Of a stretch of 43,655 nucleotides of DNA, positions 5,817 to 36,963 are shown piece after piece. Source of the stretch: Candidatus Omnitrophota bacterium (lineage in GTDB: Bacteria > Omnitrophota > Omnitrophia > Omnitrophales > Aquincolibacteriaceae). Position numbers and translations under genes: made by a program. The first letter of the stretch is position 1; the number at the start of each line of letters is the position of its first letter. The stretch covers positions 76,210-119,864 of the forward strand of contig JAUYMS010000047.1 in NCBI GenBank assembly GCA_030698625.1, written 5' to 3'. Below the pieces are notes generated by a model. The model was not told the origin of the DNA. It was given only the letters and a program-made list of their open reading frames with translations, and made no database searches.

Positions 5817-5877
5817 AGATTTAGGATTCTTTCCTTTCAAAATCGTCCTTTTTTAAAGTACGCCTAAGTATTAATAA

Positions 5878-19484: not shown

Positions 19485-20123
19485 ATGCGAACGCATACGT
19501 TAGCACTACTTATTATCCTCTTTGCGGCCGCGGCTCAGCCTGCGATGGCCGCCGACAGCTCCTGGGAGCTCGTCAAACGCGAAGGCGCCGTCTCACTCTA
19601 CTCAAGACCGGACCCTGACACCAAGTTCAACGCCTATAAGGGCGCAGCGCTCTTTGAGGCTCCCATTGAAACGGTTTACGCTGCATTCCTCGGGCCCGAA
19701 ATTGCCCAGCAGTGGATGTTTCAGCTTGAGACCATCCAGGCCTTGCCTGCCCCGAGCGACGTTGAGCGTTATTATATGCAATGGGACCTTCCGTGGCCCA
19801 TACCGGACGGGGATGTCGTCGCTGACATGAGCCGGGATTTCGACGAGGCAAACCGAACCTGGATACTCTGGTTTCTCAAACAGGACATTGAGTTTAAGGG
19901 AGGTTCGGGGTCGAAGCGCTTGGACGGCTTCAAGTGTGTCTGGCGTCTGAGTGCCATGGGAAATAATCAAACGCTTGTGGAATTCGGGTTAACGATAGTA
20001 CCCGGCGGGTCGTTCCCCCACTGGGCCGTCAACTACTGGAACCGTATCTTCACGATCAATAATGTCCAAGAATTGCTGAATTTTCTTTCCGAAGAAAAAG
20101 CGGTTACGCAGACACCTCAATAA
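19485..20123 (+). CDS. Secreted START/SRPBCC-type lipid-binding protein
   Basis: 212 aa from ATG 19485; ATG 19473 in the same frame lies inside the TATAAT box and is unlikely. Signal peptide (HTLALLIILFAAAAQPAMA). The mature protein starts WELVKREGAVSLYSRPD and has PIETVYAAFLGPEIAQQWM, YYMQWDLPWPIPDGDVV and a C-terminal helix, typical of StAR-related lipid-transfer (START) domains that hold a lipid in a helix-grip cavity. Its 3' end overlaps the convergent giant gene by 20 nt. Confidence 0.85.
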   Translation: MRTHTLALLIILFAAAAQPAMAADSSWELVKREGAVSLYSRPDPDTKFNAYKGAALFEAPIETVYAAFLGPEIAQQWMFQLETIQALPAPSDVERYYMQWDLPWPIPDGDVVADMSRDFDEANRTWILWFLKQDIEFKGGSGSKRLDGFKCVWRLSAMGNNQTLVEFGLTIVPGGSFPHWAVNYWNRIFTINNVQELLNFLSEEKAVTQTPQ

Positions 20124-23100
20124 GCCCCCGGTTCACCAACACCTCATCGATATAGCTCGCCAAAGCCACGGCAAAGCCCCCGGCGACCGCATGTGCACCC
20201 GGCACGATATTCTGGAGCGAGGATTCAAGCAGGCGGATGCGTTCAGCCCGATTCGGCACATTGCGAATCAGCGAGGCCGCCTTCAAGAGACCCGGAACCA
20301 AAAATCCGACAGCGGCCAAGTCTTCGTCACTGACCTCATCGGGGTTCAGGATAAACCGCACAGCGGCGGCGGGCAGTGAAGCGGTGTGAGCGGCCGAAGA
20401 AAGCGCAACCACACCGTAATGATGCCTTTCGATATGCCGCTCTAAGTCGCCGGGAGACACAACTTCGATGAGCTCAGCCAGTCTCGAAGCGCTCAGAAAG
20501 CGCTCGGCGTCAAACCGCTCCATCACACTCAAACCATTGTGTTTATTTCGCAGCGCATCAGCCGCCCTATCCAGCAGTTCCCGCGTTCCGGCAAAACCCA
20601 CTAGCGGTTGAGGTGCGAAACTTCCCGCCGACACATTATCCAGGCTCTTCAGCAGCACATAAAGCGCTCTCGGGTTACGGTCTATCAGAGGGTTGAGCCA
20701 AGCGGCGTCGAGAAGCACCTGTCCGGTATCCGCAGCGGCGGCCTCTTGCAAACGTGATTTCCATTTAGCCGTCGGACGAATCCGCCCCGTGCCGAAAGCC
20801 CTAACAAGCGCGCTCTCCGGACGCGTGCGCACAATACCGGCTTTTTCCGCATATGCGGCGCGCCCCAGTAACCCACTGAGCATCTTGACCAGAACCGCGG
20901 TTCCGAGTTCCTCGAAACGCAGCGGCAATGTCTGGGCCCGATACTTCTGAAAAACAGTAACCGTATCAACCCGGAGCTCTGAACGGTCGGCTCCCAGTCC
21001 GTCGAGGTGGTCTTTAAGTATACGTTCTGTCTTGCGGGTATAGCCGATTGTGTCGGGCGGCTGTATCAGGTTGGCCGGTCCGCGGATCGGTGCGCCGACA
21101 TTGACGACATCAAGCTCCGGGAGAACCAGCAGTTTATACCCCTGGCCTTCTGCTTCAAAGTTGTCTTCAAAAAAGACCATCTGACTAATTTCAAAGCCCT
21201 GTTTTATCAGATCATGCACACCATCAATCTTTCCCGGGTTCTCCTTCGCCAGAACAAGCACACGCCCGTCACCGATGTGAACCTGGAAGTCGTCAATACC
21301 GGCTTCGCGCAGACGTTCGCTGGCTTTGGCCTGCAGGATACGCAGCTTCCAGTTGTCGAGCTTATTGAGCTGATTGATCGAATAATCCAGATTCGGAGAG
21401 TAAAGGATGACGGCTTCTCGCCGACTGATCTTACGTGCATCAAACTCAGCCAATGACGCAAACGGCGCGTGAAAGCCAAGTCGGTCAGACTCTTCCGCAT
21501 CTAACTCCTGAAGGATCCGAATCGCAGCTTCAATATTGCGATTGTCCTTAAGACTAAGAATCCTGCCTTCCCTGTGTTCTTCGTAGTATGGCAAATCCTC
21601 ATCAGCCGTAATCTTGCCATCGGGCGATTGTGAAAACGCATACTTATGCGCGGAACCAAGTGAAAATAACTTTAAACGACTCAATGAGCGCGGATTAAAG
21701 CGCGGGTGCTCAAAAATATTTTCCAGAAAACCGAGCCCCATACCCTTCTCGAGCCCATCGAGACCCTCCGGGCCAAGGAACCGCAGTGTGTTGAGCTCCA
21801 CAATTTTGTCCGCATTCAACAAACCGACGATCAATCCCACCATTTCCTCAGAAATCGTGCCGTGCATCGGAATCAGCGTGTCATCAACATCAAAGATAAA
21901 GACGCGCTTATTTTTAAGCGCCTCTGCAATCTCAACCCAAGACTTAATGGCAGGCAGCGTGCTCGGTTCGATCCTTTTGGTGTCATGCACCACGAACTCA
22001 CTGCCGTGGATGCCTCGAATCACGCCGGCTTCAGCGTTAAGCTTGAGCGGCAACCTCGCAAGCAGTGATCTCGCTTCGAAAACAGCCGAGGTCCGGTGAC
22101 TGCTCCGTGCGAGCTTCGATGCCACGGCTAACGAGCCGCCAAACCCACTCAGCACCTCAGCCACCTCTTCCAAGCGGCCTCGCTCCAGGTCCGGAACAGA
22201 CCCCAAATATTCTCCTAAAAATCCCAGATCTTTACGGACCTGATCCATCGCGACGACATTGGAGCTATGAATCCCCTGTTCGATAAGAAAAGACTGGAGT
22301 TCTCTGCGGAGCGGGCTCGCGTCCAGATCCTCATAAAGCGGGGCGATCAAGCGCGCGAGCGAGCGCTTCATCACGGGCGGTATGCGAGGGCCAAAGTTTT
22401 GATCCCGTGTCGCCCAGAGGAGTTGCCGCGTCGTTCTTACGGCTTCGACCGCGCCTGATTGTGTCCAGCGCATCATCACCAGATGGAGGCCGAAGACACG
22501 CATCTGGTCGGCATTCATAAAGCCGGAGATTTCGCCGCTCGATAGAAGCCTAACAATCTCCTTAACAACCGCTTCGTAGAATATCTCGGGTCTCTTGCTC
22601 AAAAAATCAATCGCGCGCGCACGGCCGACCGGCCCTGTTCCCAACATGCGCTTCAATACAGAAAAATCGGTATCCGGTGATAGCTCCGAACCGAAGGCCG
22701 CGACTTCATCTTCAAGCCCCGGCACCGAGAGGAGGTTCCGCCAATAGCTTTCTGACATACCCGCCGAGCCTTCCCGCCAAACGGCCGAGATTTTGCCGTT
22801 GATAATATCTACCATTTTTTCGTCAACTAAACTCTTCAGAGCTGTCAGGAACGACTCCTTTTCTGATTCGTCTACGCGGATCATCGTTGCTGACTCACGA
22901 TGCACACGGTCAATTTCCCGAATCCACCGCAGGACTTCCGCTGAAAACCGCCGCTCGGCAAGCTCCGCAGAAAATATCTCCGCATCCGCGATACGCGACC
23001 GATTCTGCTGCGGTTGACCATTCAATAATGCCAACAGCTCCGTTAATTGCTCTGAATCGAGCTCATCCTCGGAAAGGAGCCATTTGATCCGCGCCACATG

Positions 23101-26100
23101 CTTCCTCAGCAGCAAATGTACCGGGTTCTCACCGGCAGCAACGATATCCGTGAAGGAGCGGAACGTTCTGTCCTTATAGATAGAGACATACGGCATACGG
23201 TCACGGCCTTCTTCTGCCCAGACAGTTCGCATATCTTCGCTTGAAATCAGACTCGGCGGCTTGACATTATACCCTTCAACTTTCATCTCCGACCCGGCCA
23301 GCCATGAATGGAGGTTCTCCTGCAGAGGCATCAACTGTTCCTGGGTGAGCCCATCCACCACGATAAAGTTCGAATCAAAGTCACTCTGCGCTAAGGTCAG
23401 TCCCATCGTCAGTGAATTGGGCATCGAGAGAATTTCGGTGACGGCCGCAGCCGGGTTAATCTTTTTAATCTCTTCATCCAAACGGATCGTCGCGTACTTA
23501 AGCGCGGCGAACGCGTTGTCGGTATGATTGATTTGTTTGATCGCCTCTTGTGCCGTGTACTTCTGCAATGAGAGAACCGGGATACCTAACTCGCGCTTGA
23601 GCCGGCTGCTGCCGACATATCTTGTGTTTTCAATCATACTGACGGAAGCGAGCACATGAATACCCTTCTCGTGCAATGAAGCGACCATTCTCCGCTGTTC
23701 TTCACCGTCGGTCAGCTCCCCCGTCACTAAAATAATACCGTCACCCGCAGTCAGCCCGTGAAAGGTCATGGCGTAGCCATTCGCCCCGATATAATCCACC
23801 GTTTGTGCATCGGACTCGATCGGTGCAGGCCGGTTGCTCGCGGTCATGAGCGGAAGATGGGTTGCATCCGCAATCGCCGCGGCTCCATACAGCCCTGAGG
23901 TTGTAGGCCCGGCAACATAGAGCGTCTTTCCCTGGGCATAATAGGATCGCCGCAAATTCGCAAGCTTTCCCAATTCGCTTTCTAATGCCGCCTGTGCATT
24001 TTTCCCCGCGCTTCGAAATTGTTCCGGCGTAAGAGGCACCGACATACCCCGAAAAGCGTGATCGGTCCACACGGTCTCTTTGGTATCAGCGACCGGATAA
24101 TGACGAATCGCCGCATCAAAAGGCACTACTGCACCATCTGCCGGCGCATTCCAAACCCGCACGGCTTCGCCGAAGGGCGCGTGACCTGGCTCCGTTGCAT
24201 TCACCGCCTCCAGGAACACATACGGAAAGGTTTCTGAGGCGAGACGCTCAAGGGCTTCCGGCGAGGTCCGAAGAACAATTCCGGCCGAGGCAAGTTCTGC
24301 GCGGCCGGTTTCCAACATTTGGCGAATATTCTGCATGACGCGTCCCGTCGTCGCTTCATCGTCGACATACAGGATGCGGCTGCCGGGCGGAACAACGGCG
24401 CGCGATTCAAATTCAGGGCTGCTTTGCAGCATATGCGGCTCCGCCATCGTAAGGCGGTTCGCACCGCCGGCCAGCGCAGAATCAAAGGCCCCAAACTTCA
24501 ACTTTGTCAGTGTCAATAACGGAAGTTCCAGTTCGCGTGCGGTCAGCAGACCGGGAAGAAGCCCTGCATTATATTTGCCCATGACATAGTCAAGCGCCTC
24601 GGTTCCACCCTCAGCACGTAAGGCTTCGATGACTGCATGCATCACGCTTGCCGCCGCGGCGACTGAGATCGGGTGATCGCTTCCGGTCACCGGAACCGCT
24701 TTCTTCAGTCCGTTGGAGTGAGGAATCTCAGCCGGCCTAAATTGAGGGTAAAAAAAGCGGTTCATGGGAAGGATCTTTCCTTCGCTGAGAAAGAGCCGTT
24801 TCTCTTCACCCGTAATCACCTCGCCGCTGGCCTTTCCCAAGATGGAGCGAAGAACCCAATCGGGATTTAAACTGTGGACCGCATTTGCTTCACGCCTGTA
24901 CGCCTCCGCGGCGTTGTCGTCAACGGTGAATTCGGGCAGCGCACGACGCACATCATCAATCGTGTAACTTCCGGGAGTAGTCGTCCTTAGTTCCGATCGG
25001 TCGCCTTCTTTTCTGGGCGCTTCGATGTGGGTAAGTGCCCTGTGCGCCGCCCGGACAATCTTTTCGGGTGAGATGCGCAGGTCCAGCTCCCTGCCGATCG
25101 TCACCGTCCGCATCGTGGCGGGATCGTCAAAACGCACGTCTAAAACCTTCACCTCCGCGCCCGGCATTTGCCACACGCCTGCCTCTCCGGTCGGCACAAG
25201 CGATGCAAGGACCGGTACGAGGATATTCCTTTCGGCATAGGCCTCCCGGATGACATCCGCGATGACCAACTCGAAATCGTGCCGGGCATCAGGGTCCTCT
25301 TTAAGGTAATTGTGATAGACCACGTTGTAGTAAATGAGGCCCGTGAGATTCGGCAACCCCTCTGCCAGGCCGGCATAGTCGGCGGTATCGGATTCCAACA
25401 CAGCACCTTCCAGCAGCTTAACGGCGGTAAAGGTATGAAACCTCTCCACGACGAAACGCTTAAACTGCTGCGGGTCAAAACCGCGGATGCGCTTTCCTAG
25501 TGCCAATGCCAGTGCGTTGAAATCAGGACGGAATAACTCGGGATTAAACCTTGTTCGTTGTTCGGGGTCAACTTCATAGACGACACTATAATAATTCGCC
25601 TGATTCAGAACGGCTTCCTGCCGGAGCTCTTCTGAGTCGGAGTCGTTTTGGTAAAGCATGACGTAATTTTTATAAATCTCGAAAAAGACCTGGTTGAGAA
25701 AGGGCATGACCTCACGGGCCTTTGTGTATTTATTCCAAAATTCATCAAACCGCTCGAGCGAAGCCTCCGTATCGGAATCGACCGCCTTCGCGAGAAAGCC
25801 GTAGGCATCGCGGTACTGGCGCACGACTTCGGACCGCACACCGGCTTCTCCCTGCGCCGCCCAGTCGAGACGAGCCCCCGCACGATCGACCGCCTCGAGG
25901 TACGCGCGCCCGAATCCCAAATAATCCATCCAATTCGAGGTGCGGTTCACAGCACCTGTGGTGTACGGAGCTTTGAAGACAAGATAGTAATCCTCAGGTG
26001 CGGCGTCCGCGGGAACATTACGGCGCATTTGCAGATTTTTCCAATGCTCATGCACGAGGCTGCTCACGCGCCCGCCTACAACCGGCGTGGTGTAGACAGC

Positions 26101-29100
26101 GGGGCCGACAGCGCGCACCGAGGTATAAACTTCCTTTTCGGCCGAGGCGAGCATGTCATTCTTGCCGAGTGTCATGTGTATCAAGTGAAGATTCCCTGCT
26201 TCGTCTGTCTCGAACAGCCGGCCGTCGGTGAGCAGGCTGCCCATGGCGGCTTCGGCGGAATCCCGCTTCATGAAAGCCAGTTCCCGCTCGTAGACATCCG
26301 GGCTTTGATCGTTCCACGAATAGTCGAGCAGATACGGAAGTGTGTGCAGGTTCAGTGCTTGGCCCATGTCCATATGTTTCGTTATTTCAAGAACGGCCGC
26401 CGCCGCGAGCCGCACCGAGCCGGTTAGATAGCGGATGTCCTGCGCTGCAACCCGAGCATTCTCTCCCGTTTGCTCCGGCATGAGAAGCACATCCACATTC
26501 CCGAATGCGCCGGAAATCAGGGTGGGTTCCGAAACCTCGGGTGAGACCGTGCCCACGACCGCCCTCGCAAGGCGCGCATGCACGGAAGGATAACTCGCCG
26601 CCGCAACGCCATTTTCCGGCGCATCGTCCGCACTAAACAGACCCAGCAAAACCCTCACTGCTTCTTCCTGCGACTGCGCCCTCAGTTCGGAGCGGTCTGT
26701 CTCCACGAGCGCACGGACATGGCCGATCATCGATTCTGCCCGCGGTTCACCGATAGCCGGCGTATCCGCCAAGCGTTTGCGGAGCGCTTCCAGCATTTCG
26801 TCCGGATCGGCTCCCGATTCGGAACGGATCTCAAGCAGCGTTGAGGCTGCGAACGCTTCGAGCATCAACAAAGTTCCCGCTTCGTTTTTGTTCTCAAGAT
26901 TCAGGGCGCCATCAATTTCCCCGGGGCCTACATACACGCGTAAAGACCGGCCCGCCTCAAGGAGAGGCCCGTCAATGCCGCTAGGCAGAACATAGTCACC
27001 CGCCACCATGGTGCGATCGGGATCAAGTTTCTCGCCGTCAAAAAGCGGCACATCAAAAACTGCGGCTTTGGTCACCGGCGCAATCTTGAAGAACTGACCT
27101 TTTGCACCGCCGTTGGACACAAAAGAGTAATGAAAGACATCGTTGGGCAGTTCCGCCCTGACGGCCTCGGCTTCGCTCAATGCTTCTGCCCCTGTAATTC
27201 CTTTTTTGTAGTACACAGAGTGCGGCGGCCGGCCGATGTCGAGCTCATGCCAGCCGCGGCGCGTCATAATGTCATGCAAAAGGTCGAGGAATGACTGCGG
27301 AAATTTCGGGTAATCATGCGGACGATCATTCAGATAGGCTACCGTATCGTTAAACACCGCAAAATTTGGCCCGGCCCTGATGGGCACAGGATTGACCGCC
27401 GTATCCAGCGCCTGATCATGAAAGCGGTCATAAGAAGCACCCGTGGTGACCACTATCTTCTTGCCCTGTTCCATGAGCCAGTTCAGCCAGAAGGCGTGCT
27501 CCGGATTTACCACATGACTGCGGCTTGAGCTGGCATCATTCATCGTACCGTCCCAATCCGTTGCAAGCGCATCAACGGATCGACCCTGTTGACGCGCCGC
27601 TTCCAGGCCGTCAAAGAGGAGCTTACGGTCACGAGTGGCCGCTGCCGCTTCTGATGGTACTACACCGGGCTCAACGGAACCTTTGCGAACAAGCCCGAGA
27701 TCGGAGACAACCTTCGCGCCCCGCTCTGCCGAACGCTTTCTAAAATCCCGGCTCTGACCCACGAGGTGGGCCGTCACCCTCTCCCGAATTCGATCATCGG
27801 AAATCTGCGCAAATACTTTCCCAAGATGAGTCGTGATGTTTTGCATCACCATCGGCGGAATGCGCGCCTCGCGATCGTGCTCCAGAAGATTTTCCAGCAC
27901 CCAAGTGAGCGCGGCGTCCGGAGACGCGTCTGAAAACCGCATCCAACGGAATAGAAGCTTGATCATCATATCGACCCTTGTCTGCTCACGCCCAAAAAAG
28001 GCTTCGAGCGCTTCGGCGGCCTCACCGTCAACGTCGAGCAACTTTAAGATTTTACCGCGAATACGCGGCGCAAGCTCCTGTTCGCGGGTTTCGGCAAGTT
28101 CCAGGGCGGCTGCCACAGAGAAGGCGTCTCCGTCACCAAAGGCGTCAATTAAGCGATTTTGCTGGGCCCGGTTCAGCGTTTCATTCCCTTGCCAGGACCG
28201 AAGAATAATTTCCATCAAATAGGGCGAAAATCGCCAATCCCATTTTTTCAGTTCAAACGTTCTCGGTTTATTGCTTGCAAGCCGGCCGCTTAGCACCGCT
28301 GACTCGGGCAGATTGGCGAGCCACTCTCGGTCGAGATCGTTTAACTCCTGCTCATAGCCTACGATCTCAGCCTGCTCGGTCCAGAAGCGGTCGGAGAATC
28401 GCGTGCTGTGATGACGCCACACCGGGATCAGCTTTCCGTTCCAGACCCGGATCATCGCTTTGGCCAGGAGCTCACGCAGGACCGGCACCATTTCCGCTTT
28501 GTTCTCCTCACCGAATTCAAATGACCGCTTCCCTGCGGTGTATTCCGCCTCGAAACGACGCACCCAGTTGAGGGCTGCGTCACTCAAGTACGCTGTCTCA
28601 CGAGGTTCGTCAAGCAGGCGTTTCAAAGCCTGAAGGCGCGGCGAGCTTCGCACATCGCGGCCGCGGCTCGCCAAGAGTGTCTCCACATCCTCACGCCGCA
28701 TTTCTCCCTCCGTCAGAAACCAACGAATACGCGCGATCTGCTTGCGTGAGACGCCGCGAACGACTTTGATCTTGTTTCGAATGAGCTCCTCCTGGCTGAG
28801 GAACCGGCCGTTTTCGTAAACCCGGACCAGCGGCAGGCTTTCCAACTCGTAACTTTTGACTGCCGCATCTTCATGCCATGTCGATATCAGGCGCGGAGCT
28901 TTTTCATTAAGACCGTCCAAGGCGGCCGCGCCGACGCTGATCCAGCGGCCGAAAGGCTCCTGGAATTGAGCAAGCTCATGCTCACTCACGCCTTCGACAA
29001 ACACATAGGCCTCGTCAAAGTCGCTGCCCTGAATCATGGTGTGCGTGGTGAACGAACTCGGGAGCATGCGAATCTCGCGCACATGGGCGTCAGGATTTAG

Positions 29101-32100
29101 TTTCCTGACCTCGTCCTCCAGCCGCATGACCGCATACTTTAGGGAATCGTGGATACTCTTCGTTGCGTTCCACCGCCGCATGTCGGGCGAAATAAAGTTA
29201 CCCTTCCGCAGAGAGCGGGCCGGCACTCCGGTCTCAGCTTCGATTCTTTCGCGGCCCCCATAGAGCGCGCTTTCGATCACGCTGATAGAACCGAGCACTT
29301 CCACCCCTTTGTCGCGCAAGGCGTGAATGATGCGCACCTGTTCTTCGCCGTCAAAAAGCTCACCGGAGACAAGCACGACTGCGTCACCTGCCGTGAGCCC
29401 GAAGAGCGAATAGGCGTAACCGTCGAGAGAGATGTAATTGACGACATCCGAGATATCCATCTCGGCGTACCCCTTTGGCTCGGGGCGATTCATGGCGCCG
29501 ATGAGCGGTAAGCGCGTCTGGCGTGCGGCCGGGACTGCGGCCAATATGCCGCTCGGCGTTGTCCCCGCTAAAAAGAGCGTCCTGCCCTTCCCGTAATAAG
29601 CCCTGCGCCTCTCTCCGATATCACCGATCAGATTTCTGATCTCGCGCCGGATGGCGGCACCGGCCTGACGCGCAAGCTCCGGTGAGAGCGGCATCGTCAA
29701 GCCGCGGAACGGATGGTCCGTAAAAAGGCGCCCGTCCTCGGCGGGATACTCGTTGATCGGCATCCCGGAAAGATCCGCATCAGCGTCGCTTACAGTCATT
29801 GCGACCGCCGGAATCGCCTGCTCAAACGGCACAACCGTCGGTACATCGCGATCGGCCCCAGCGATAATTTCCGGTTTCAATGAATCTATGTGCACATACG
29901 GCAGTCCCGATTCGAGGAAGCGCTCCTCGGCTTCAGGCGATGATTGCACCACAACTCCCACACCGATTGTTTGAATCGCAAAATCTGCCAACTTTTCGGC
30001 CAGATTCTGCCCGACTCTTCCGGTGGTGCTCTCATCATCGAGAAACAGGATCCGCGTTCTTGGCTGCACATAAGCATTGGAGTAATACTCCGGATTGTCG
30101 ATCGGCATATGCGGTTCCTCGATACGAAGCAGTCGGCTATGATCCGGCACAAGGAACGGGTAGGGCATTTTTGTGAGCGTAAGCATCGGGACGTCGAGTT
30201 GACCGGATGCGATGGCTGCCAGCACCAGGCCGCCGGTGTATTTCCCCATCACGCTAAGGTCGGTGGTGTCGTCAAGATTCACTCCGCGTTCGCGAAGTTT
30301 TTCAATAAGGGCTTGAGCTATCGATTCTGAAATGACCGTCGACACGGGATGATTGCTTGAGGTAATGCGCACGGCTTTCTTCATGCGGTTCGAATGCGGG
30401 ATATCGGCCGGCCGCATATGAGGCCGATAAAGGATGGTCTCCGGCCGCAGCTTCCCTTCGTATAAGAAAAGGTCGGCCTCCAAATCGCTCACCTGCTCCC
30501 TCGATGTTTTTCCCAACACGCCGCGTAAAATCCAGTCTAAGTTATCCGAGCCCAGAGCGGCGGCCTCGCGGCTGACTATCTCGCGACTCACAGGATTAAG
30601 CCGACTCTCATCGATACTGCGAAGCTCCGAGCGTGTGTCGCGGGCACGGAGTATCCTCAAAAACCGCTCAGGTCCGGTCTCAGGTACGGGCGACGCCTCC
30701 AGTTGAAGAATGTCCGGTGTGCCTTGCGTGGGAGGCGAGATCGAGACCACGCTCAACCCCGGGATTTCGCCGAGCGTGCGGTTAATGCTGTTTCCTCCAA
30801 ATTTACCCCCGATAAAAACAATATCGCCTATGGCAAAACCCTTTTCCTGCAGATCAAATATCGCGTCATCGTGCTGGTTATTCTCCTTTGAAAGGAAAAC
30901 ACCCCGCTCCCGATGGAGGCGGGGAATCAACGGCACAGTTCCGGTGCCGGCGGGATCACGCGCGTACTCATCCAGAATCAGCCGGCCGAGAATCCGGATC
31001 TTCCAGTTTGCGACGGCCGCAAAGCCGCCCTTGATGCGGTTCGGAAAATATTGAATTCCAAAATCATCGCGCTCCACTTGCTCACGCATGAAGTCCTGCA
31101 CCGTAAAGTCGCCGTGCGCAAGATCAAAGCGCTCATAGTTCTCGCGATGGATTTTGAGCAGTACGCGGTCTACGCGTGCCAGAGACAATTGTTCTGCCGG
31201 AGTGAAGACCTTATGTCTGCCGCGGCCTTGCGTGTAAGCGTGATCTTCAACCGGAATGTATGTTCCTCTCGAGTCCGCTGATTCCGAAAAAACGATCTTA
31301 CTGGAAGAGGCGCTCGCATAAACGATCACTTGCGGCAGCATGTCCTTGGTAAACTCCGCATGGGCAAACAGATCCTTGACGATTCCCAGGTTTTGGCCGG
31401 GCTCCAGAGTCGCGAAATCCTCGACACGAAGGTGACGCAGGGTAATAAAGGCCAGGGTCTTCCCTTCTTTCAGAAGTTCCATAAGGGCATCAATCATCTC
31501 AGGCATGACCGCATCTTGACCCGTGACCGCGTCATCGAGCGCCAATGCAAAGACGTTCTTATCTTTCAGATGGAGGGTGATTTCTTCGGCTGTGCGGGTC
31601 TTGACGGGAACATTTGCCCTAAATTTTCCGTCGGGCCCCTTGGCAAAACGAATGCCTGCGAGCCCCGGATGCCGGAGGCTGATTTCGCTTGTTTTATCGT
31701 CGATTTCAACTGAAGAATCCATAAGCATGCCGTGCGCTGCTGTGCGCAGCTCTAAGTCGGCCAAGTCATTGCTTGCGATGTTAATGAGTTTTTCGATGGA
31801 CTGCCCGTACAGATCGTCGAGTACCCCGCTGATCTCGTCGATATAATCCGCCGCATTTTCCGGCAGCGACTCGATATACTCCTCGAGAAATTCCAGCTCT
31901 TTCGGCTCGTCACCGATTTCCGTGAACTCCTTAGTGTCCTGCTGGGTCTTCAAAAAGCGCAATGCATCTTCCAGTTCATCAGGTCTTAGCGAATCGATAA
32001 AAGCAGTCCGCCCGATTGCTATCGGGACGACCATCATGAGCCGTCCGCCCTTGTGACCGATCGATTCTTTGATGCCCTGCCATGCCTCAACCGGGTCCAG

Positions 32101-35100
32101 GGCCGGGTGGTAGAAAGGCTGCCCGAGCTTGTGATGGAGATTTAGAATGCGCGTAAAATCTTCCACCGAGAGCATTCCCCGCTCACGGGCAATATAGGCC
32201 GACATCAGGACATCTATGGCTACGGCCTCACCATGCCGTAATTCAAACCCCGTCATGGCCTCAAATTTATGCGCGAGAACATGGCCGAAATCGACATGCC
32301 TCATAAGATTGTTCTCAAAAAAGTCGAGCCGCAGATGCCAGAGCAGTTCCATCGCCGCATCACGCACGAACTTCGTACGCTCGGTCTTTGACATGCGTTT
32401 GATAAAATCAGTGCCGTATTCTTCGAGCGTTTCGAAGAGACCGGGGTTCGAGACCATCGCAATCTTGATCACCTCTGCCGTCCCTCCCCGAACCTCGCGC
32501 AGCGGCAAAGACTCGAGAAAGCGCGCGTCGGTGATCGAAGCAAAGGGCGGATAGAAAGCCCCGACGAAGTTCTTGGCGCCGCGATAGTCAATGCCTACCT
32601 TCACGCCGACAGCGGCGTCCACCTGTCCAAGAAAGGTGGTGGGAATACGAATGTATTTCACTTTGCGCCGGTATTGGGCCGCCACCATGCCGACCATATC
32701 CATGACTGCCCCGCCTCCGATCACGACAAATATTCCGTTTCGGTCAAAACCGCGATCCTGCGCATAGTCGGTCAGCTCGCGCACGGCATCCGGATTCTTA
32801 ATATTCTCGCCCCCTTCATAAACCTGGATTTCACCCTTCATGTGAATGCCGTGGGCCTCGACATATTTTTCAATTTCGGCGCGCACACCTAGATTTTCCG
32901 CCACGAACTTTTCGGTAACGAATATGACATTGTTGCTACTGAGGAGATCCGCCAATATGGGATTCTGCGGGTCGAAGGCATTCTCGGTAAAATAGTCGCG
33001 GTACTGAATGTCGTTGGGCGCACGGGCTTCAACCGCCTCAACCCCTCTTTCATCGGTCCTCACCTCGACGTACCCGCCATCATAGGGTCGCTCAGGCTCG
33101 GTCTGGTTTGGGTTGAATCCGAGCAGACCCGCTCCGCGAAGACCGTTTTCGCCGTCAAGCTCGCCGAGCACGAACATATCCTGAAGCTCCTCACGCGTAT
33201 AACCGTAGACACCCCGCTCTGAAAGCTTATCAATGACGGCGTCGAGATAGGTTTGACCTAGGCTCTCGGCAACGCCTCCCATGAAAATAATTTTGTCCGG
33301 CGCGTTTGCCAAGATATAGGGATTGAGGACGCGGACAAAATAGCGGATCGATTCACGCAGAACGGCCCAGGCGAATTCATCGCCTGCCTGCACTCCTGCC
33401 GCGATATATTCCGTTAAATCGTCCCCCTTTATCCCTTGTATGTCTGTCTTAAGGCCGTCAATCGCAGCTTTAACTGATGATTTGTTATATAGGGCCTTTG
33501 TCCTCTTTCTCCTTGCCATACGCCGCGCCAGATTGGCGATACCGCGACCGGAGCCGTAGGCATTCAGCTCACCCTTGACGCCTTCTTCCTGAATCGCATC
33601 GCGACTGTCGTCGACGACGGTGTGCCCGATTTCTCCGGCACGACCGGCCTTATCGATGATGACTTCGCCCTTGCCGATATCGAATAGCTTTGTACCAATG
33701 CCGCTGCTGACCGTAATGAGGCCCAAGGTTTGCAAACCCGCAAAGCGCGGATCTCGGCCATAGCGATAGACCGCCGCCGTCAAGTCGTTGACCGCCCGCA
33801 CCGGCAATCCGAAATAATCTTCAAGGTCACGGTTCTTAATGAGATTTTTTTCAGGCCCCCAAATCACTGCCGATTCCGCAAAGTTGCCTTCCTCATCCGT
33901 GGGCCCGGCGAAGCCTATGGAGATCTGCTTCACATCGGGATGGAGCGCCATTAGGCGATCCACCTCTTGTTTCAATCGCTCAAGCCATATCCGCTGCATC
34001 TCGGCAATGGGTTTGCCCGCGACGGTCGCAATTTTATAACTTGGGGTATCGTACGTCACCCTATCGGTGATCTTCTCGCCATCCCAAAGCCCCACACGCG
34101 TATGAGTTCCGCCGGCGTCGACTACAATGACCGGTCCGCCTTCAGCCTTAGGACGCAAATTCCGTTCATATCGCATATCATCGATTTGATTGCGCACGCC
34201 CGTCTCGGGATGCGTAAAGCTCCGCTCGCCCAACATGCGCCTGGACCATGACGGGTCCTGTTTGTTGGCAGGCTGCATTTCACCTTTAAAAGTCACCGTT
34301 CCCGTACCTTCCGGGGCATGCTTTTTAATCAATCCCCAGATCTCATCGGTGTCCGTCACCGTACCACTGGCGAGGTCGACGATTTTTTCGGGGCCGGGTT
34401 CGAGCGTAGAACCGGCGGCAAATAAAATCTCTGCGACGTCCTGGACATAGACATAATCACGCTCTTCAGCCTTCTCGGTGACATGCTTACCATCGAGGCG
34501 AGCCGCGATCATTCGCTGCACCTTGCGGCCTGACTGATGACCCGGGCCGTACACATTTGAAATACGCACGGCGAGAGGGTTTTTCAACCGGCTCCGTTCG
34601 AGGTACATCTCCGCCAGCCTCTTGCCCAATTCATAGGGATACGCATTCTTCGGCATCGGAAAACGTTTTAGGATGTCGGCGTTCAGTTCTTCGAGCGCCT
34701 CGTTGTAGTCGGCCGAATCAAGGAAAACTTCCTGCTTCCTCGTTTCGATGTGCGCAAGCACCTTTTCCAGCCAAGCCGTCACGTCAGCATCCTCCAAGAT
34801 TTCGTAGACACGCTGTGTCGACGCAAAGATAAATCGCGGCTCCGTCGCTGCTTCCTCCGCCCAGACCATCAGGCCGAGAGCCGCCAAGCCATTCACTTTG
34901 AAATTTTCGGGGTAACTCTCCTCACCCTTTCCAAGCCCCACAATTCCGGCCAAGTGATAAAACGTATTCGCATTCTCCAAGAGTTGCTTCATGCGATCGC
35001 GATCCATAAAATCCGCCTCCACGTAAGAGTCCGCCGAGAATGACCGGCCCGCGCGCTTTTCCAGTTCAGCCCGCGACTCCGGCGAACGAATGACCGCGCG

Positions 35101-36963
35101 ACTGAGGTCATATTGCGAATTAAGGTATCGAAACAGCGTCGCTCCGACATCACCGCTCGCACCCGTCACCGCGGGGCCCGCGCTTTGGCTTGTAATCCTC
35201 AGTTCGGACCGCACGGCGGCATAGCGTTTTCCGAGTGCGCTCTGTCTGAATGCTGCCCGCAGTGCCGGACTTGAACCGACACGGTTAACGGCCCGCATAA
35301 CCTCTTTTGTCACAGCCTGCTCATCGATCCCGAGGCCGCGCAGTTCAGAACGATCCGCCGAGATGAAGAAAGGACTTTCGTAGGTCTCGCGGCTTAGATC
35401 CCCGGACCGATACTTAAGGAGCGACTCTTGATAAACAGCCTGGCCGTTGAATTCTGTGATATGCGGCGCAATCAGGGCGTAGTTAAAACCCGCGGCCGTA
35501 AAATGATCTGCCAGAGGCCCGGCGTGGAAACCGCCAGAAATGACGACGGCCTGTTTCGCCCCCGTTTTTTGCAGGCGTGTCTTGATGTTCGCGATCATCC
35601 AATGGTCACGCTCTTTGGTACCGCGATAAAATGCGAGCGCCCTTTCGTAAATCTCATTGATCTCGTCAAGATGCTCAAAGCGCATATCGCGCACCCGGCC
35701 TTCGCGGTTGAGCTCAAGAAAGCGGCCGGCCAGCGTACGCGGTTGCAGATGTTCCTCTGCCCCTATAATGCGATCGTAATCGCTGGGCGTGAGTTCTAAG
35801 GCAAAGAGCTTTCGCACCAACCCGTAGTCGCGAAGCAGGGCCAAAAGGGCACGTTCCTGATCCGTCTCTGCCAGGGCATCACCGAGTCGTCCGGCCAGTT
35901 CATCAATTTCTTTAAAAAGGCGGCCGGCTTTAAGTTCACTGCGCAGGATCACATGGCCGATGAAACGATTAAGATTCGGGAAATCATCATAAGAAAATTC
36001 AGGGCCGAGCTCGGCGGCCATCGCTTCGATGAGAAGGCCCGTTTCCGGGTCGGGCAGGTCATCACGGACAACGGCCTGATCGAGAAGGACGGCAATTTCA
36101 TCATAGAGCGCGGGCAACAGCTTCCCTCTCACTTTACTCAGAAAACGGTCGCGCTCTGCACGGAAAGCGGAATAATCGACTTCATCCTGTAAGTGAACCA
36201 GGCGGTAGAACCGGAACAGCATCGGCCAATCGATCTGCCAGACGGCATCGCCCAAATCCAGGCCGAGGACATCTTTGGCTTCTTCGCGGAGATGTTTGAG
36301 ATAATCTTCCAGAGGAATTGTCCCCCGCGCATACCCGGTTTCAGTCTCAAGAAAGCGCCGCAACAGCACCGGCAGCAGGGTCGTTTCAAGGCGCTTGATT
36401 TGAGTTTGCATCTCGGCCAGAAAGGACTCATGCTTTTGCTCCGCTAACAATACATCGCGAAAGGCTTCGCCGCTCGCGCGATAGGCCGGTGCATTTTCAA
36501 TACCATAAGCCGCGGCGTCGGGCTCTTCAGAAAGAAATAATTCAACACCTTTTACGAGCGCCTTCTGTGTCAGTAATTCGAGGGCCGTCATTGTCGGCTT
36601 GGCGTGACCGGGGAAAAGCCGCAGCAATTCGGAATCGAGTTTCACGGCACTCCCCTCGACCAAAACCGTACTGACACCGCGGACATCGTGAAGGTGATGC
36701 AGAATCGCCTGAATATGCTTTTGGGCCTGGAAATTTCCGTGCGCGGTTTGGATGTGATAAATAACCGGATCGGACTTCGTTGACGAAATGATTTTTTCGA
36801 TGCGCCCGAGACCGGCCGGGAGCGCTAAAAGGAACGCATCAGGCGCCCTAAGAGGTGTGGGCTTCGAGACAAACGTGTACGCGGCTTGCGCAGGAATGAC
36901 CTGCTGAAAGATGAAAAGAAATGCCGTAAATAGCGCAATAATTCGGTGCTTTTGTGTGCCCAT
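20104..36963 (-). CDS. Giant 5,619-aa secreted-type multienzyme protein with RSELR linkers
   Basis: One uninterrupted frame from ATG 36963 (GAGGGG two to three bases upstream, rather close) to TGA... at 20104; roughly 0.6 MDa. Order: signal peptide 1-27 (IIALFTAFLFIFQQVIPAQA); ChaN/TraB-like head about 50-520; RSELR 538 and 585; extended SDR about 595-930; ROK kinase about 943-1275; sugar-phosphate cyclase about 1317-1665; degenerate HAD about 1780-2095; RSELR 2111; PRTase-like pair about 2130-2620; helical region; HAD (DWDGT) about 3110-3390; RSELR 3424; unrecognised block; RSELR 3989; second PRTase pair about 4010-4490; helical region; HAD (DVDDT) about 4995-5315; RSELR 5327; C-terminal helical domain. 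It carries cytosolic-type kinase and NAD enzymes behind a signal peptide, which is odd. Domain calls vary in strength; each is listed separately. No clear promoter was found in 36964-37148. Confidence 0.95.
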   Translation of the reverse strand: MGTQKHRIIALFTAFLFIFQQVIPAQAAYTFVSKPTPLRAPDAFLLALPAGLGRIEKIISSTKSDPVIYHIQTAHGNFQAQKHIQAILHHLHDVRGVSTVLVEGSAVKLDSELLRLFPGHAKPTMTALELLTQKALVKGVELFLSEEPDAAAYGIENAPAYRASGEAFRDVLLAEQKHESFLAEMQTQIKRLETTLLPVLLRRFLETETGYARGTIPLEDYLKHLREEAKDVLGLDLGDAVWQIDWPMLFRFYRLVHLQDEVDYSAFRAERDRFLSKVRGKLLPALYDEIAVLLDQAVVRDDLPDPETGLLIEAMAAELGPEFSYDDFPNLNRFIGHVILRSELKAGRLFKEIDELAGRLGDALAETDQERALLALLRDYGLVRKLFALELTPSDYDRIIGAEEHLQPRTLAGRFLELNREGRVRDMRFEHLDEINEIYERALAFYRGTKERDHWMIANIKTRLQKTGAKQAVVISGGFHAGPLADHFTAAGFNYALIAPHITEFNGQAVYQESLLKYRSGDLSRETYESPFFISADRSELRGLGIDEQAVTKEVMRAVNRVGSSPALRAAFRQSALGKRYAAVRSELRITSQSAGPAVTGASGDVGATLFRYLNSQYDLSRAVIRSPESRAELEKRAGRSFSADSYVEADFMDRDRMKQLLENANTFYHLAGIVGLGKGEESYPENFKVNGLAALGLMVWAEEAATEPRFIFASTQRVYEILEDADVTAWLEKVLAHIETRKQEVFLDSADYNEALEELNADILKRFPMPKNAYPYELGKRLAEMYLERSRLKNPLAVRISNVYGPGHQSGRKVQRMIAARLDGKHVTEKAEERDYVYVQDVAEILFAAGSTLEPGPEKIVDLASGTVTDTDEIWGLIKKHAPEGTGTVTFKGEMQPANKQDPSWSRRMLGERSFTHPETGVRNQIDDMRYERNLRPKAEGGPVIVVDAGGTHTRVGLWDGEKITDRVTYDTPSYKIATVAGKPIAEMQRIWLERLKQEVDRLMALHPDVKQISIGFAGPTDEEGNFAESAVIWGPEKNLIKNRDLEDYFGLPVRAVNDLTAAVYRYGRDPRFAGLQTLGLITVSSGIGTKLFDIGKGEVIIDKAGRAGEIGHTVVDDSRDAIQEEGVKGELNAYGSGRGIANLARRMARRKRTKALYNKSSVKAAIDGLKTDIQGIKGDDLTEYIAAGVQAGDEFAWAVLRESIRYFVRVLNPYILANAPDKIIFMGGVAESLGQTYLDAVIDKLSERGVYGYTREELQDMFVLGELDGENGLRGAGLLGFNPNQTEPERPYDGGYVEVRTDERGVEAVEARAPNDIQYRDYFTENAFDPQNPILADLLSSNNVIFVTEKFVAENLGVRAEIEKYVEAHGIHMKGEIQVYEGGENIKNPDAVRELTDYAQDRGFDRNGIFVVIGGGAVMDMVGMVAAQYRRKVKYIRIPTTFLGQVDAAVGVKVGIDYRGAKNFVGAFYPPFASITDARFLESLPLREVRGGTAEVIKIAMVSNPGLFETLEEYGTDFIKRMSKTERTKFVRDAAMELLWHLRLDFFENNLMRHVDFGHVLAHKFEAMTGFELRHGEAVAIDVLMSAYIARERGMLSVEDFTRILNLHHKLGQPFYHPALDPVEAWQGIKESIGHKGGRLMMVVPIAIGRTAFIDSLRPDELEDALRFLKTQQDTKEFTEIGDEPKELEFLEEYIESLPENAADYIDEISGVLDDLYGQSIEKLINIASNDLADLELRTAAHGMLMDSSVEIDDKTSEISLRHPGLAGIRFAKGPDGKFRANVPVKTRTAEEITLHLKDKNVFALALDDAVTGQDAVMPEMIDALMELLKEGKTLAFITLRHLRVEDFATLEPGQNLGIVKDLFAHAEFTKDMLPQVIVYASASSSKIVFSESADSRGTYIPVEDHAYTQGRGRHKVFTPAEQLSLARVDRVLLKIHRENYERFDLAHGDFTVQDFMREQVERDDFGIQYFPNRIKGGFAAVANWKIRILGRLILDEYARDPAGTGTVPLIPRLHRERGVFLSKENNQHDDAIFDLQEKGFAIGDIVFIGGKFGGNSINRTLGEIPGLSVVSISPPTQGTPDILQLEASPVPETGPERFLRILRARDTRSELRSIDESRLNPVSREIVSREAAALGSDNLDWILRGVLGKTSREQVSDLEADLFLYEGKLRPETILYRPHMRPADIPHSNRMKKAVRITSSNHPVSTVISESIAQALIEKLRERGVNLDDTTDLSVMGKYTGGLVLAAIASGQLDVPMLTLTKMPYPFLVPDHSRLLRIEEPHMPIDNPEYYSNAYVQPRTRILFLDDESTTGRVGQNLAEKLADFAIQTIGVGVVVQSSPEAEERFLESGLPYVHIDSLKPEIIAGADRDVPTVVPFEQAIPAVAMTVSDADADLSGMPINEYPAEDGRLFTDHPFRGLTMPLSPELARQAGAAIRREIRNLIGDIGERRRAYYGKGRTLFLAGTTPSGILAAVPAARQTRLPLIGAMNRPEPKGYAEMDISDVVNYISLDGYAYSLFGLTAGDAVVLVSGELFDGEEQVRIIHALRDKGVEVLGSISVIESALYGGRERIEAETGVPARSLRKGNFISPDMRRWNATKSIHDSLKYAVMRLEDEVRKLNPDAHVREIRMLPSSFTTHTMIQGSDFDEAYVFVEGVSEHELAQFQEPFGRWISVGAAALDGLNEKAPRLISTWHEDAAVKSYELESLPLVRVYENGRFLSQEELIRNKIKVVRGVSRKQIARIRWFLTEGEMRREDVETLLASRGRDVRSSPRLQALKRLLDEPRETAYLSDAALNWVRRFEAEYTAGKRSFEFGEENKAEMVPVLRELLAKAMIRVWNGKLIPVWRHHSTRFSDRFWTEQAEIVGYEQELNDLDREWLANLPESAVLSGRLASNKPRTFELKKWDWRFSPYLMEIILRSWQGNETLNRAQQNRLIDAFGDGDAFSVAAALELAETREQELAPRIRGKILKLLDVDGEAAEALEAFFGREQTRVDMMIKLLFRWMRFSDASPDAALTWVLENLLEHDREARIPPMVMQNITTHLGKVFAQISDDRIRERVTAHLVGQSRDFRKRSAERGAKVVSDLGLVRKGSVEPGVVPSEAAAATRDRKLLFDGLEAARQQGRSVDALATDWDGTMNDASSSRSHVVNPEHAFWLNWLMEQGKKIVVTTGASYDRFHDQALDTAVNPVPIRAGPNFAVFNDTVAYLNDRPHDYPKFPQSFLDLLHDIMTRRGWHELDIGRPPHSVYYKKGITGAEALSEAEAVRAELPNDVFHYSFVSNGGAKGQFFKIAPVTKAAVFDVPLFDGEKLDPDRTMVAGDYVLPSGIDGPLLEAGRSLRVYVGPGEIDGALNLENKNEAGTLLMLEAFAASTLLEIRSESGADPDEMLEALRKRLADTPAIGEPRAESMIGHVRALVETDRSELRAQSQEEAVRVLLGLFSADDAPENGVAAASYPSVHARLARAVVGTVSPEVSEPTLISGAFGNVDVLLMPEQTGENARVAAQDIRYLTGSVRLAAAAVLEITKHMDMGQALNLHTLPYLLDYSWNDQSPDVYERELAFMKRDSAEAAMGSLLTDGRLFETDEAGNLHLIHMTLGKNDMLASAEKEVYTSVRAVGPAVYTTPVVGGRVSSLVHEHWKNLQMRRNVPADAAPEDYYLVFKAPYTTGAVNRTSNWMDYLGFGRAYLEAVDRAGARLDWAAQGEAGVRSEVVRQYRDAYGFLAKAVDSDTEASLERFDEFWNKYTKAREVMPFLNQVFFEIYKNYVMLYQNDSDSEELRQEAVLNQANYYSVVYEVDPEQRTRFNPELFRPDFNALALALGKRIRGFDPQQFKRFVVERFHTFTAVKLLEGAVLESDTADYAGLAEGLPNLTGLIYYNVVYHNYLKEDPDARHDFELVIADVIREAYAERNILVPVLASLVPTGEAGVWQMPGAEVKVLDVRFDDPATMRTVTIGRELDLRISPEKIVRAAHRALTHIEAPRKEGDRSELRTTTPGSYTIDDVRRALPEFTVDDNAAEAYRREANAVHSLNPDWVLRSILGKASGEVITGEEKRLFLSEGKILPMNRFFYPQFRPAEIPHSNGLKKAVPVTGSDHPISVAAAASVMHAVIEALRAEGGTEALDYVMGKYNAGLLPGLLTARELELPLLTLTKLKFGAFDSALAGGANRLTMAEPHMLQSSPEFESRAVVPPGSRILYVDDEATTGRVMQNIRQMLETGRAELASAGIVLRTSPEALERLASETFPYVFLEAVNATEPGHAPFGEAVRVWNAPADGAVVPFDAAIRHYPVADTKETVWTDHAFRGMSVPLTPEQFRSAGKNAQAALESELGKLANLRRSYYAQGKTLYVAGPTTSGLYGAAAIADATHLPLMTASNRPAPIESDAQTVDYIGANGYAMTFHGLTAGDGIILVTGELTDGEEQRRMVASLHEKGIHVLASVSMIENTRYVGSSRLKRELGIPVLSLQKYTAQEAIKQINHTDNAFAALKYATIRLDEEIKKINPAAAVTEILSMPNSLTMGLTLAQSDFDSNFIVVDGLTQEQLMPLQENLHSWLAGSEMKVEGYNVKPPSLISSEDMRTVWAEEGRDRMPYVSIYKDRTFRSFTDIVAAGENPVHLLLRKHVARIKWLLSEDELDSEQLTELLALLNGQPQQNRSRIADAEIFSAELAERRFSAEVLRWIREIDRVHRESATMIRVDESEKESFLTALKSLVDEKMVDIINGKISAVWREGSAGMSESYWRNLLSVPGLEDEVAAFGSELSPDTDFSVLKRMLGTGPVGRARAIDFLSKRPEIFYEAVVKEIVRLLSSGEISGFMNADQMRVFGLHLVMMRWTQSGAVEAVRTTRQLLWATRDQNFGPRIPPVMKRSLARLIAPLYEDLDASPLRRELQSFLIEQGIHSSNVVAMDQVRKDLGFLGEYLGSVPDLERGRLEEVAEVLSGFGGSLAVASKLARSSHRTSAVFEARSLLARLPLKLNAEAGVIRGIHGSEFVVHDTKRIEPSTLPAIKSWVEIAEALKNKRVFIFDVDDTLIPMHGTISEEMVGLIVGLLNADKIVELNTLRFLGPEGLDGLEKGMGLGFLENIFEHPRFNPRSLSRLKLFSLGSAHKYAFSQSPDGKITADEDLPYYEEHREGRILSLKDNRNIEAAIRILQELDAEESDRLGFHAPFASLAEFDARKISRREAVILYSPNLDYSINQLNKLDNWKLRILQAKASERLREAGIDDFQVHIGDGRVLVLAKENPGKIDGVHDLIKQGFEISQMVFFEDNFEAEGQGYKLLVLPELDVVNVGAPIRGPANLIQPPDTIGYTRKTERILKDHLDGLGADRSELRVDTVTVFQKYRAQTLPLRFEELGTAVLVKMLSGLLGRAAYAEKAGIVRTRPESALVRAFGTGRIRPTAKWKSRLQEAAAADTGQVLLDAAWLNPLIDRNPRALYVLLKSLDNVSAGSFAPQPLVGFAGTRELLDRAADALRNKHNGLSVMERFDAERFLSASRLAELIEVVSPGDLERHIERHHYGVVALSSAAHTASLPAAAVRFILNPDEVSDEDLAAVGFLVPGLLKAASLIRNVPNRAERIRLLESSLQNIVPGAHAVAGGFAVALASYIDEVLVNRGLIEVSA
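20107..20970 (-). other. Domain: C-terminal helical domain of the giant protein
   Basis: Residues about 5332-5619, directly after the last RSELR. Helical, Ala/Leu-rich (AVLVKMLSGLLGRAAYAEK, VVALSSAAHTASLPAAAVRF). No family recognised. Confidence 0.4.
20971..20985 (-). repeat. RSELR motif 6 (residues 5327-5331)
   Basis: CGT TCA GAG CTC CGG, preceded by Ala-Asp. Separates the last HAD domain from the C-terminal domain. Confidence 0.85.
21019..21981 (-). other. Domain: HAD-fold domain with intact DVDDT
   Basis: Residues about 4995-5315. VFIFDVDDTLIPMHG gives the nucleophile at Asp5025 and the acid/base at Asp5027; QMVFFEDNFEAEG is the likely late acidic motif. Paralogous to the dead copy at 1780-2095. 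It closes the second PRTase module. Confidence 0.65.
23494..24936 (-). other. Domain: phosphoribosyltransferase-like pair, copy 2
   Basis: Residues about 4010-4490. Paralogue of copy 1: NPDWVLRSILGK, RPAEIPHSN, MAEPHML, ILYVDDEATTGR (Asp4201, Asp4202), LYVAGPTTSGLYGAA and TGELTDGEEQ (4414-4423). The spacing between the two loops (about 213 residues) is close to copy 1 (about 224). Confidence 0.5.
24985..24999 (-). repeat. RSELR motif 5 (residues 3989-3993)
   Basis: CGA TCG GAA CTA AGG, preceded by Gly-Asp. Separates the unrecognised block from PRTase module 2. Confidence 0.85.
25009..26676 (-). other. Region: unrecognised block between RSELR 3424 and 3989
   Basis: Residues about 3430-3985. 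Contains FGNVDVLLMPEQ, LHLIHMTLGKND, APYTTGAVNRTSNWMDYLGFG and a long helical, aromatic-rich part (FDEFWNKYTKAREVM, QVFFEIYKNYVMLYQ). Bounded exactly by two RSELR motifs. I recognise no family. Confidence 0.4.
26680..26694 (-). repeat. RSELR motif 4 (residues 3424-3428)
   Basis: CGC TCC GAA CTG AGG, preceded by Thr-Asp. Separates the DWDGT HAD domain from the unrecognised block. Confidence 0.85.
26794..27636 (-). other. Domain: HAD phosphatase with intact DxDGT
   Basis: Residues about 3110-3390. DALATDWDGTMND places the nucleophile at Asp3136 and the second Asp at 3138; KKIVVTTGASYDRF is motif II; TMVAGDYVLPSGIDGPLL is the late acidic/GD motif. Resembles Cof/sucrose-phosphatase-type HAD-IIB enzymes, which dephosphorylate sugar phosphates. 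Confidence 0.75.
27679..29046 (-). other. Region: helical segment of module 1
   Basis: Residues about 2640-3095. Predicted mostly helical by composition; GVSRKQIARIRWFL and RIPPMVMQNI have clear counterparts in the second module (RKHVARIKWLL, RIPPVMKRSL). No catalytic motif seen; HEAT-like scaffold possible. Confidence 0.4.
29104..30576 (-). other. Domain: phosphoribosyltransferase-like pair, copy 1
   Basis: Residues about 2130-2620. LDWILRGVLGK, RPADIPHSN, RIEEPHMP and a PRPP-loop-like LFLDDESTTGR (Asp2309, Asp2310) resemble PRTase_2 (PF15609) proteins of Ter operons. A second Rossmann-like part follows (LFLAGTTPSGILAA, SGELFDGEEQ at 2533-2542) that may equal the TRSP domain. GSDFDEAYVFVEG downstream recalls a nucleotidyltransferase motif, weakly. 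Confidence 0.5.
30619..30633 (-). repeat. RSELR motif 3 (residues 2111-2115)
   Basis: CGC TCG GAG CTT CGC, preceded by Asp-Thr. Separates the dead HAD domain from PRTase module 1. Confidence 0.85.
30679..31626 (-). other. Domain: degenerate HAD-fold domain
   Basis: Residues about 1780-2095. Paralogue of the HAD domain at 4995-5315: KDKNVFALALDDAVTG corresponds to KNKRVFIFDVDDTLIP, so Ala1808 stands where the nucleophile Asp should be. NWKIRILGR versus NWKLRILQA and GDIVFIGGKFGGN versus SQMVFFEDNFEAEG align, and the late acidic motif is also lost here. Probably not a phosphatase; a scaffold or regulatory role is possible. Confidence 0.6.
31969..33015 (-). other. Domain: sugar-phosphate cyclase (EEVS/dehydroquinate synthase superfamily)
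   Basis: Residues about 1317-1665. NAD motifs GGENIKN (1384-1390) and VIGGGAVMDM (Gly1416-1418); IPTTFLGQVDAAVGVKVG and KNFVGAFYPP; metal ligands in GGTAEVIKIAM (Glu), DFGHVLAHKFE (His) and LRHGEAVAID (His). The VGVKxG and GAFYPP wording is closer to what I know of 2-epi-5-epi-valiolone synthases than to AroB (VGGKTG, GAFYQP). Substrate call is inference. Confidence 0.75.
33139..34137 (-). other. Domain: ROK-family sugar kinase
   Basis: Residues about 943-1275. ATP phosphate motif VDAGGTHTRVG (Asp949), sugar-binding IGFAGPTDEEG, AVNDLTAAVY with the catalytic Asp, SSGIGTK, and the EIGH motif (Glu1111-His1114). The usual CxCGxxGCxE zinc loop that follows is replaced by a Cys-free EEGVKGELNAYGSG. 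ROK members include glucokinases and the C7-cyclitol kinases of the acarbose and validamycin pathways. Confidence 0.85.
34174..35181 (-). other. Domain: extended SDR (NAD-dependent epimerase/dehydratase)
   Basis: Residues about 595-930. NAD(P)-binding VTGASGDVGATL (Gly601-Gly607), NTFYHLAG, FIFASTQRVYE and the catalytic YELGK (Tyr777, Lys781), then RISNVYGPG. All hallmarks of the extended SDR family acting on nucleotide sugars or related polyols are intact. It lies directly in front of the ROK kinase with no RSELR between them. Confidence 0.88.
35197..35211 (-). repeat. RSELR motif 2 (residues 585-589)
   Basis: CGG TCC GAA CTG AGG, preceded by Ala-Val. Ten residues before the SDR glycine motif. 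Confidence 0.85.
35338..35352 (-). repeat. RSELR motif 1 (residues 538-542)
   Basis: CGT TCT GAA CTG CGC, preceded by Ala-Asp. Ends the ChaN-like head. Confidence 0.85.
35404..36882 (-). other. Domain: ChaN/TraB-like head of the giant protein
   Basis: Residues about 28-520. Begins IEKIISSTKSDPVIYHIQTAHGNFQAQ in pieces (AH...AQ motif), then STVLVEGS and AAYGIENAPAY, and ends AVVISGGFHAG (His480), ALIAPHITEF. The left giant protein has the same order of motifs (GGFH at 494). The pattern resembles the ChaN/TraB(TIKI)-like superfamily of putative metal- or heme-binding or protease-like domains. No function can be assigned. Confidence 0.5.

Follow-up and report, generated by a model that had tools for sequence, protein, structure and literature searches.

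Results

A Giant ORF with Four Domains between Two RSELR Copies

The window, by which we mean the whole 43,655-nucleotide stretch of DNA analyzed here, carries on its minus strand an ORF of 5,619 amino acids (20104..36963) with a fairly uniform GC3 over its domains. Residues 1-537 (35353..36963) begin with a Sec-signal-like stretch, which is followed by a conserved domain. Further along the protein, two copies of the pentapeptide RSELR, at residues 585-589 (35197..35211) and 2111-2115 (30619..30633), form the left and right borders of a segment of several domains, all encoded on the minus strand. These are, in order, an extended SDR of the NAD-dependent epimerase/dehydratase family (residues 590-941; 34141..35196; Pfam PF01370, E 8e-24, about residues 599-857), a ROK kinase of the cyclitol-kinase type (residues 942-1281; 33121..34140; Pfam PF00480, E 5e-18, about 946-1281), a sugar-phosphate cyclase (SPC; residues 1302-1666; 31966..33060; Pfam DHQ_synthase, 1.5e-33, about 1383-1492, and DHQS_C, 6e-23, about 1494-1626) and a HAD-like domain, HAD1 (residues 1682-2110; 30634..31920), recognized by comparison with a paralogue within the same protein. 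The Pfam coordinates were converted from searched pieces of the giant ORF and are approximate.

The first three domains together take up residues 595-1665 (31969-35181, minus strand), and their motifs are intact. A preliminary description of this DNA had placed an SDR, a ROK kinase and a cyclase next to each other in one ORF, with no RSELR between them. Both points hold: Pfam recognizes all three, and there is no further RSELR from residue 585 up to residue 2111. The delimited segment (residues 585-2110) extends past the cyclase, however, and the HAD-like domain is a fourth member that had been omitted. HAD1 shares 27% identity with its paralogue at residues 4941-5326 but lacks the nucleophile Asp (FALALDD versus FIFDVDDT in the paralogue), and judging from this sequence it is probably non-catalytic. 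Elsewhere in the ORF (23044-30633) there is an internal duplication, in which residues 2111-2780 match residues 3989-4640 with 37% identity over 661 amino acids; the duplicated units are phosphoribosyltransferase-like and contain the loops LDDESTTG and VDDEATTG.

RSELR and Other Giant ORFs

In the window giant, RSELR is found at residues 538, 585, 2111, 3424, 3989 and 5327. Over all ORFs examined it occurs 135 times in 115,626 residues (0.21 expected), and its codons vary synonymously from copy to copy, which rules out a site acting at the DNA level. Enrichment together with varied codons points to a selected peptide motif, and we conclude that RSELR is a real peptide motif. It may possibly be a processing site. 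Relatives have the forms RSEMR, RSEVR, RAELR and RAEMR. Literature searches on RSELR and on Omnitrophota polyproteins found nothing relevant.

A subgroup of giants has the same N- and C-terminal domains as the window protein around a different middle part. The C-terminal domain (residues 5327-5619; 20107-20985) is common to three other giants (two from C43 and one from C9). Two more large RSELR ORFs, at 3-5840 of the window and at C35:67893-76535, are on the same strand, and the first of them has the same N-terminal domain. A giant ORF of the relative G010 (L130:1769-12625) contains ribulose-phosphate 3-epimerase, HAD and ROK domains. Another giant of the same genome (C26) and giants of the relatives G017 and G037 each contain a module flanked by RSE[LM]R that holds an SPC on its own, without SDR or ROK. 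The window also encodes a type II/IV secretion ATPase (MshEN and T2SSE; 14630-16090), which is interrupted by an in-frame stop codon, giving two ORFs (323 and 162 amino acids) with the Walker A motif in the second.

The N-Terminal Domain and Export

The N-terminal domain (residues 1-537) has 60 matches in its own 3.5 Mb genome, mostly in ORFs that run to thousands of residues, the longest having 14,273 amino acids. The alignment shows invariant AH, EG and GGFH motifs. Pfam gives weak matches to DUF5694, ChaN and Erythro_esteras, and a search of the domain profile against solved structures returned nothing significant; from its sequence, the domain is probably TIKI/ChaN/EreA-like. AlphaFold models of this domain and of the cyclase are of low confidence (pLDDT 48 and 38, respectively), with shallow alignments.

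By hydropathy, the complete giants examined start with a basic and then hydrophobic, signal-like stretch, and the window giant is apparently exported. Such a start is hard to square with enzymes that depend on NAD+ or ATP. It is possible, although we consider it doubtful, that the enzyme-like domains are the cargo of an exported giant. In that case they would not carry out this chemistry in the cytosol of the producer, but would act in another place or have a binding or structural function. Besides the signal-like start, the lost nucleophile of HAD1 and the occurrence of giants with common terminal domains around variable middle modules would fit with cargo. On the other hand, export is itself a prediction from the sequence, and the motifs of SDR, ROK and SPC are all intact, which suggests selection for catalysis. 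A cargo role is compatible with the domain identities that we assign below, and the two readings are not exclusive.

The ROK Kinase Resembles Kinases of Cyclase Clusters

The ROK domain contains the motifs DAGGT, NDLTAA and GEIGH, and the CxCG zinc motif is absent. A ROK gene lies directly beside an annotated sedoheptulose 7-phosphate (S7P) cyclase gene in S. clavuligerus, R. rhizogenes and A. vitis, and about 9 kb from one, within the same cluster, in Streptomyces NBC_00467. When the window ROK is compared with a plasmid collection, the top score belongs to the cyclase-cluster ROK of NBC_00467 (32%, E 1e-30), and the top four rows also include those from the A. vitis and R. rhizogenes clusters. 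A tree built from 21 ROKs joins the window ROK to the four cluster ROKs (83/80; 98/96 including a Croceicoccus ROK) and separates it from the ordinary ROKs of relatives as well as from four that belong to other giants. There is no cyclase within 9 kb of the Croceicoccus ROK. A search at E 1e-20 through 49 genomes of the class gave no second genome with this ROK.

In acarbose synthesis, the ROK-like AcbM is an EEV 7-kinase, phosphorylating the product of the cyclase AcbC (PMC9200736). Together with this precedent, the grouping with four S7P-cluster ROKs supports, at the level of sequence, the earlier suggestion that the ROK domain is a cyclitol kinase. Furthermore, the window domains take the same relative position in the cyclase and ROK trees, beside {NBC_00467, (S. 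clavuligerus, R. rhizogenes, A. vitis)}, which suggests joint inheritance. The two thus have the appearance of a cyclitol synthase-kinase pair that was inherited together.

The SDR and the Status of the Trio

The SDR has the TGxxGxxG motif at residues 600-607 and YPYELGK at residues 775-781, where YxxxK is kept, and is an extended SDR of the nucleotide-sugar epimerase type. A comparison with the SDRs of two cyclitol clusters gives no significant match (E 0.6 or worse), and the nearest kin found is the SDR of the C43 giant in the same genome (2e-16). The SDR had been proposed as a member of the cyclitol pathway; the lack of a specific relation to the two cluster SDRs and the kinship with the C43 giant go against this. 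In the C43 giant (L069:9722-14248), an RSELR-delimited segment holds a ROK and then an SDR, the reverse of the order in the window, and this ROK is of a different kind from the window ROK.

The proposed equivalence of the three domains to the core enzymes of acarbose/validamycin-type synthesis therefore has support for the ROK-SPC pair and none for the SDR, and no further pathway gene was recognized nearby: neither a nucleotidyltransferase nor a glycosyltransferase or aminotransferase of a pseudosugar pathway could be recognized near the giant ORF. As a conserved unit the trio is rejected over the genomes covered (49 of the class for the ROK, 384 of the phylum for the cyclase), being found in one genome only, with the SPC alone in other giants. 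Cyclases as strong as the window SPC occur in three of 384 genomes of the phylum, all inside giants. By the sequence comparisons above, two of the three domains form a firm pair, and the membership of the SDR is uncertain.

The Cyclase Is Probably Nearest to EEVS and DDGS

The SPC has what characterizes its superfamily, namely the N- and C-terminal Pfam domains of DHQ_synthase and the Glu/His/His metal ligands; all three ligands are present, as had been noted (E1497, H1561, H1577). Its best solved relatives are ValA (4P53; E 3.9e-53) and the DDGS of A. variabilis (9e-46), and the best DHQS follows at 6e-38. A tree of 41 SPCs places it as the sister of a group made up of EEVS, DDGS and a Streptomyces S7P cyclase (89/85; 91/88 in a second tree with six rows removed), and its exact place is unsure because of a long end branch (1.9-2.1). 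Two pocket sites, D1558 and H1637, have the Asp and His of EEVS, where DDGS has Ala and Thr; we take these sites to be Asp281 and His360 of ValA. Four residues after the metal His, all aligned EEVS and DDGS sequences have Pro, but the window SPC has His (H1565), and His is also found there in EboD and AroB.

The resemblance to EboD goes further. By pairwise identity the closest sequence is an EboD of Chitinophaga (38-39%), which sits in a complete ebo operon, and the best NCBIfam model is PRK06203 (272.6 bits, under the cut-off of 333), a model that scores EboD far above its cut-off. The SPCs of C26, G017 and G037 form their own clade, sister to EboD, in the 41-SPC tree. The window cyclase might accordingly be an EboD-like or other uncharacterized SPC, which would make a cyclitol other than 2-epi-5-epi-valiolone in an unknown pathway. 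The AU test does not reject a clade that unites the window SPC with both EboD and the SPCs of the other giants (p = 0.30; 0.23 in a smaller tree), and the His at the EEVS-Pro site fits as well. However, a clade with EboD alone (p 0.027) or with the three other giants' SPCs (p 0.017) is rejected, the ROK partner points toward EEVS-type clusters, and searches of the genome for EboC and EboE, run without a positive control, gave no match. On balance we find an EboD-like identity unlikely and prefer the one close to EEVS. A search for relatives in phages gave none that is close, the best being 27-34% identical and weaker than ValA.

The AroB sequences form a separate side of the tree (100/99), and a clade of AroB with the window SPC is rejected (AU p = 0.003). 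Counting from the metal His, AroB has Arg at -7 and Asn at -3, neither of which is kept in the window SPC. Its Arg is at -6 and its residue at -3 is Asp, as in EEVS, and the DKK motif of AroB is replaced by H-K-G-G, again as EEVS in kind. An ordinary AroB is encoded elsewhere in the genome, so that aromatic synthesis does not need the window domain; a third SPC is part of another giant ORF, 9,808 amino acids long. The tree, the AU test and the missing Arg, Asn and DKK residues rule out AroB as the identity of the SPC, and a dehydroquinate synthase with unrelated neighbors is a very improbable reading, even though automatic models name the domain 3-dehydroquinate synthase and it has the GAFYPP wording.

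These results let the preliminary assignment to EEVS stand in part. Its author had regarded a place within genuine AroB as the outcome that would speak against it, and the tree puts the cyclase outside AroB and nearest to EEVS and DDGS; what does not carry over is the assignment to EEVS proper, in view of the long branch, the His for Pro and the surviving placement on the EboD side. Likewise, the suggested inspection of the active site yields the Asp and His of EEVS and none of the AroB residues, but also a His where EEVS has Pro. The two motifs cited as wording of EEVS and not of AroB differ in value. VGVKxG is found in EboD and some EEVS-type sequences and not in AroB, and so serves in part. 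GAFYPP does not, since it occurs in ordinary AroB (L001 of the same genome, and also L045 and L050) and in none of the aligned EEVS.

Discussion

Acarbose, validamycin and natural sunscreens are made by pathways that open with a sedoheptulose-7-phosphate cyclase, an enzyme known from separate genes within clusters. With moderate confidence, we read residues 585-2110 as one section, bordered by RSELR, of a giant polyprotein built from modules, and this section as containing an EEVS-type cyclitol synthase-kinase pair. The cyclase would most likely convert sedoheptulose 7-phosphate, or a very similar carboxylate-free ketose phosphate, into a valiolone-type C7 cyclitol with loss of the phosphate, and the ROK domain would re-phosphorylate the cyclitol, as AcbC and then AcbM do in acarbose synthesis. 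The SDR may oxidize, reduce or epimerize a related sugar or cyclitol, and that it takes part in the same pathway is no more than a guess. For the window giant we infer the substrate, the product, the coupling of the domains and the processing at RSELR.

It is tempting to speculate that an exported RSELR polyprotein carries or releases a C7-cyclitol synthase-kinase section that works outside the producer, for instance in a host or prey cell as the supplier of sedoheptulose 7-phosphate, NAD+ and ATP; we consider this quite improbable. If the synthase-kinase reading is true, the union of a cyclase and a cyclitol kinase in a single giant protein, apparently exported and from an uncultured lineage, would be a new setting for this chemistry, and the poorly understood giant ORFs would gain concrete enzymatic content and a regular separator motif.

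Four known systems may be compared with the window giant. The available portion of a report on giant ORFs in Omnitrophota (PMC10066038) likewise describes many very long ORFs that are proposed to be exported, but does not mention RSELR separators or SDR-ROK-SPC sections; the many giant ORFs seen here recall those, and the organism is possibly of a like kind. The SPC modules of C26, G017 and G037 also lie in giant ORFs bearing RSE[LM]R motifs, whereas their SPC stands alone and belongs to the clade of their own that is sister to EboD. EboD, the SPC of the ebo operon (PMC5133447), has the highest identity to the window SPC and has in common with it VGVKxG and the His at the EEVS-Pro site. In contrast to EboD, the window SPC is accompanied by a ROK and an SDR and falls outside the EboD clade in the best trees, and EboC and EboE were not found in its genome.

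The fourth system is that of the acarbose/validamycin-type clusters, which combine EEVS (ValA/AcbC) and a ROK cyclitol kinase (AcbM/ValC). The window cyclase lies outside AroB and has the EEVS-type Asp and His, the ROK is of the same subgroup, and the two adjoin each other, with the ROK first and the cyclase second, as in S. clavuligerus. Unlike these clusters, the window giant has no downstream pseudosugar genes that could be recognized beside it, its SDR is of another kind, its SPC has His for Pro, and the pair is fused in one modular polypeptide of 5,619 amino acids.
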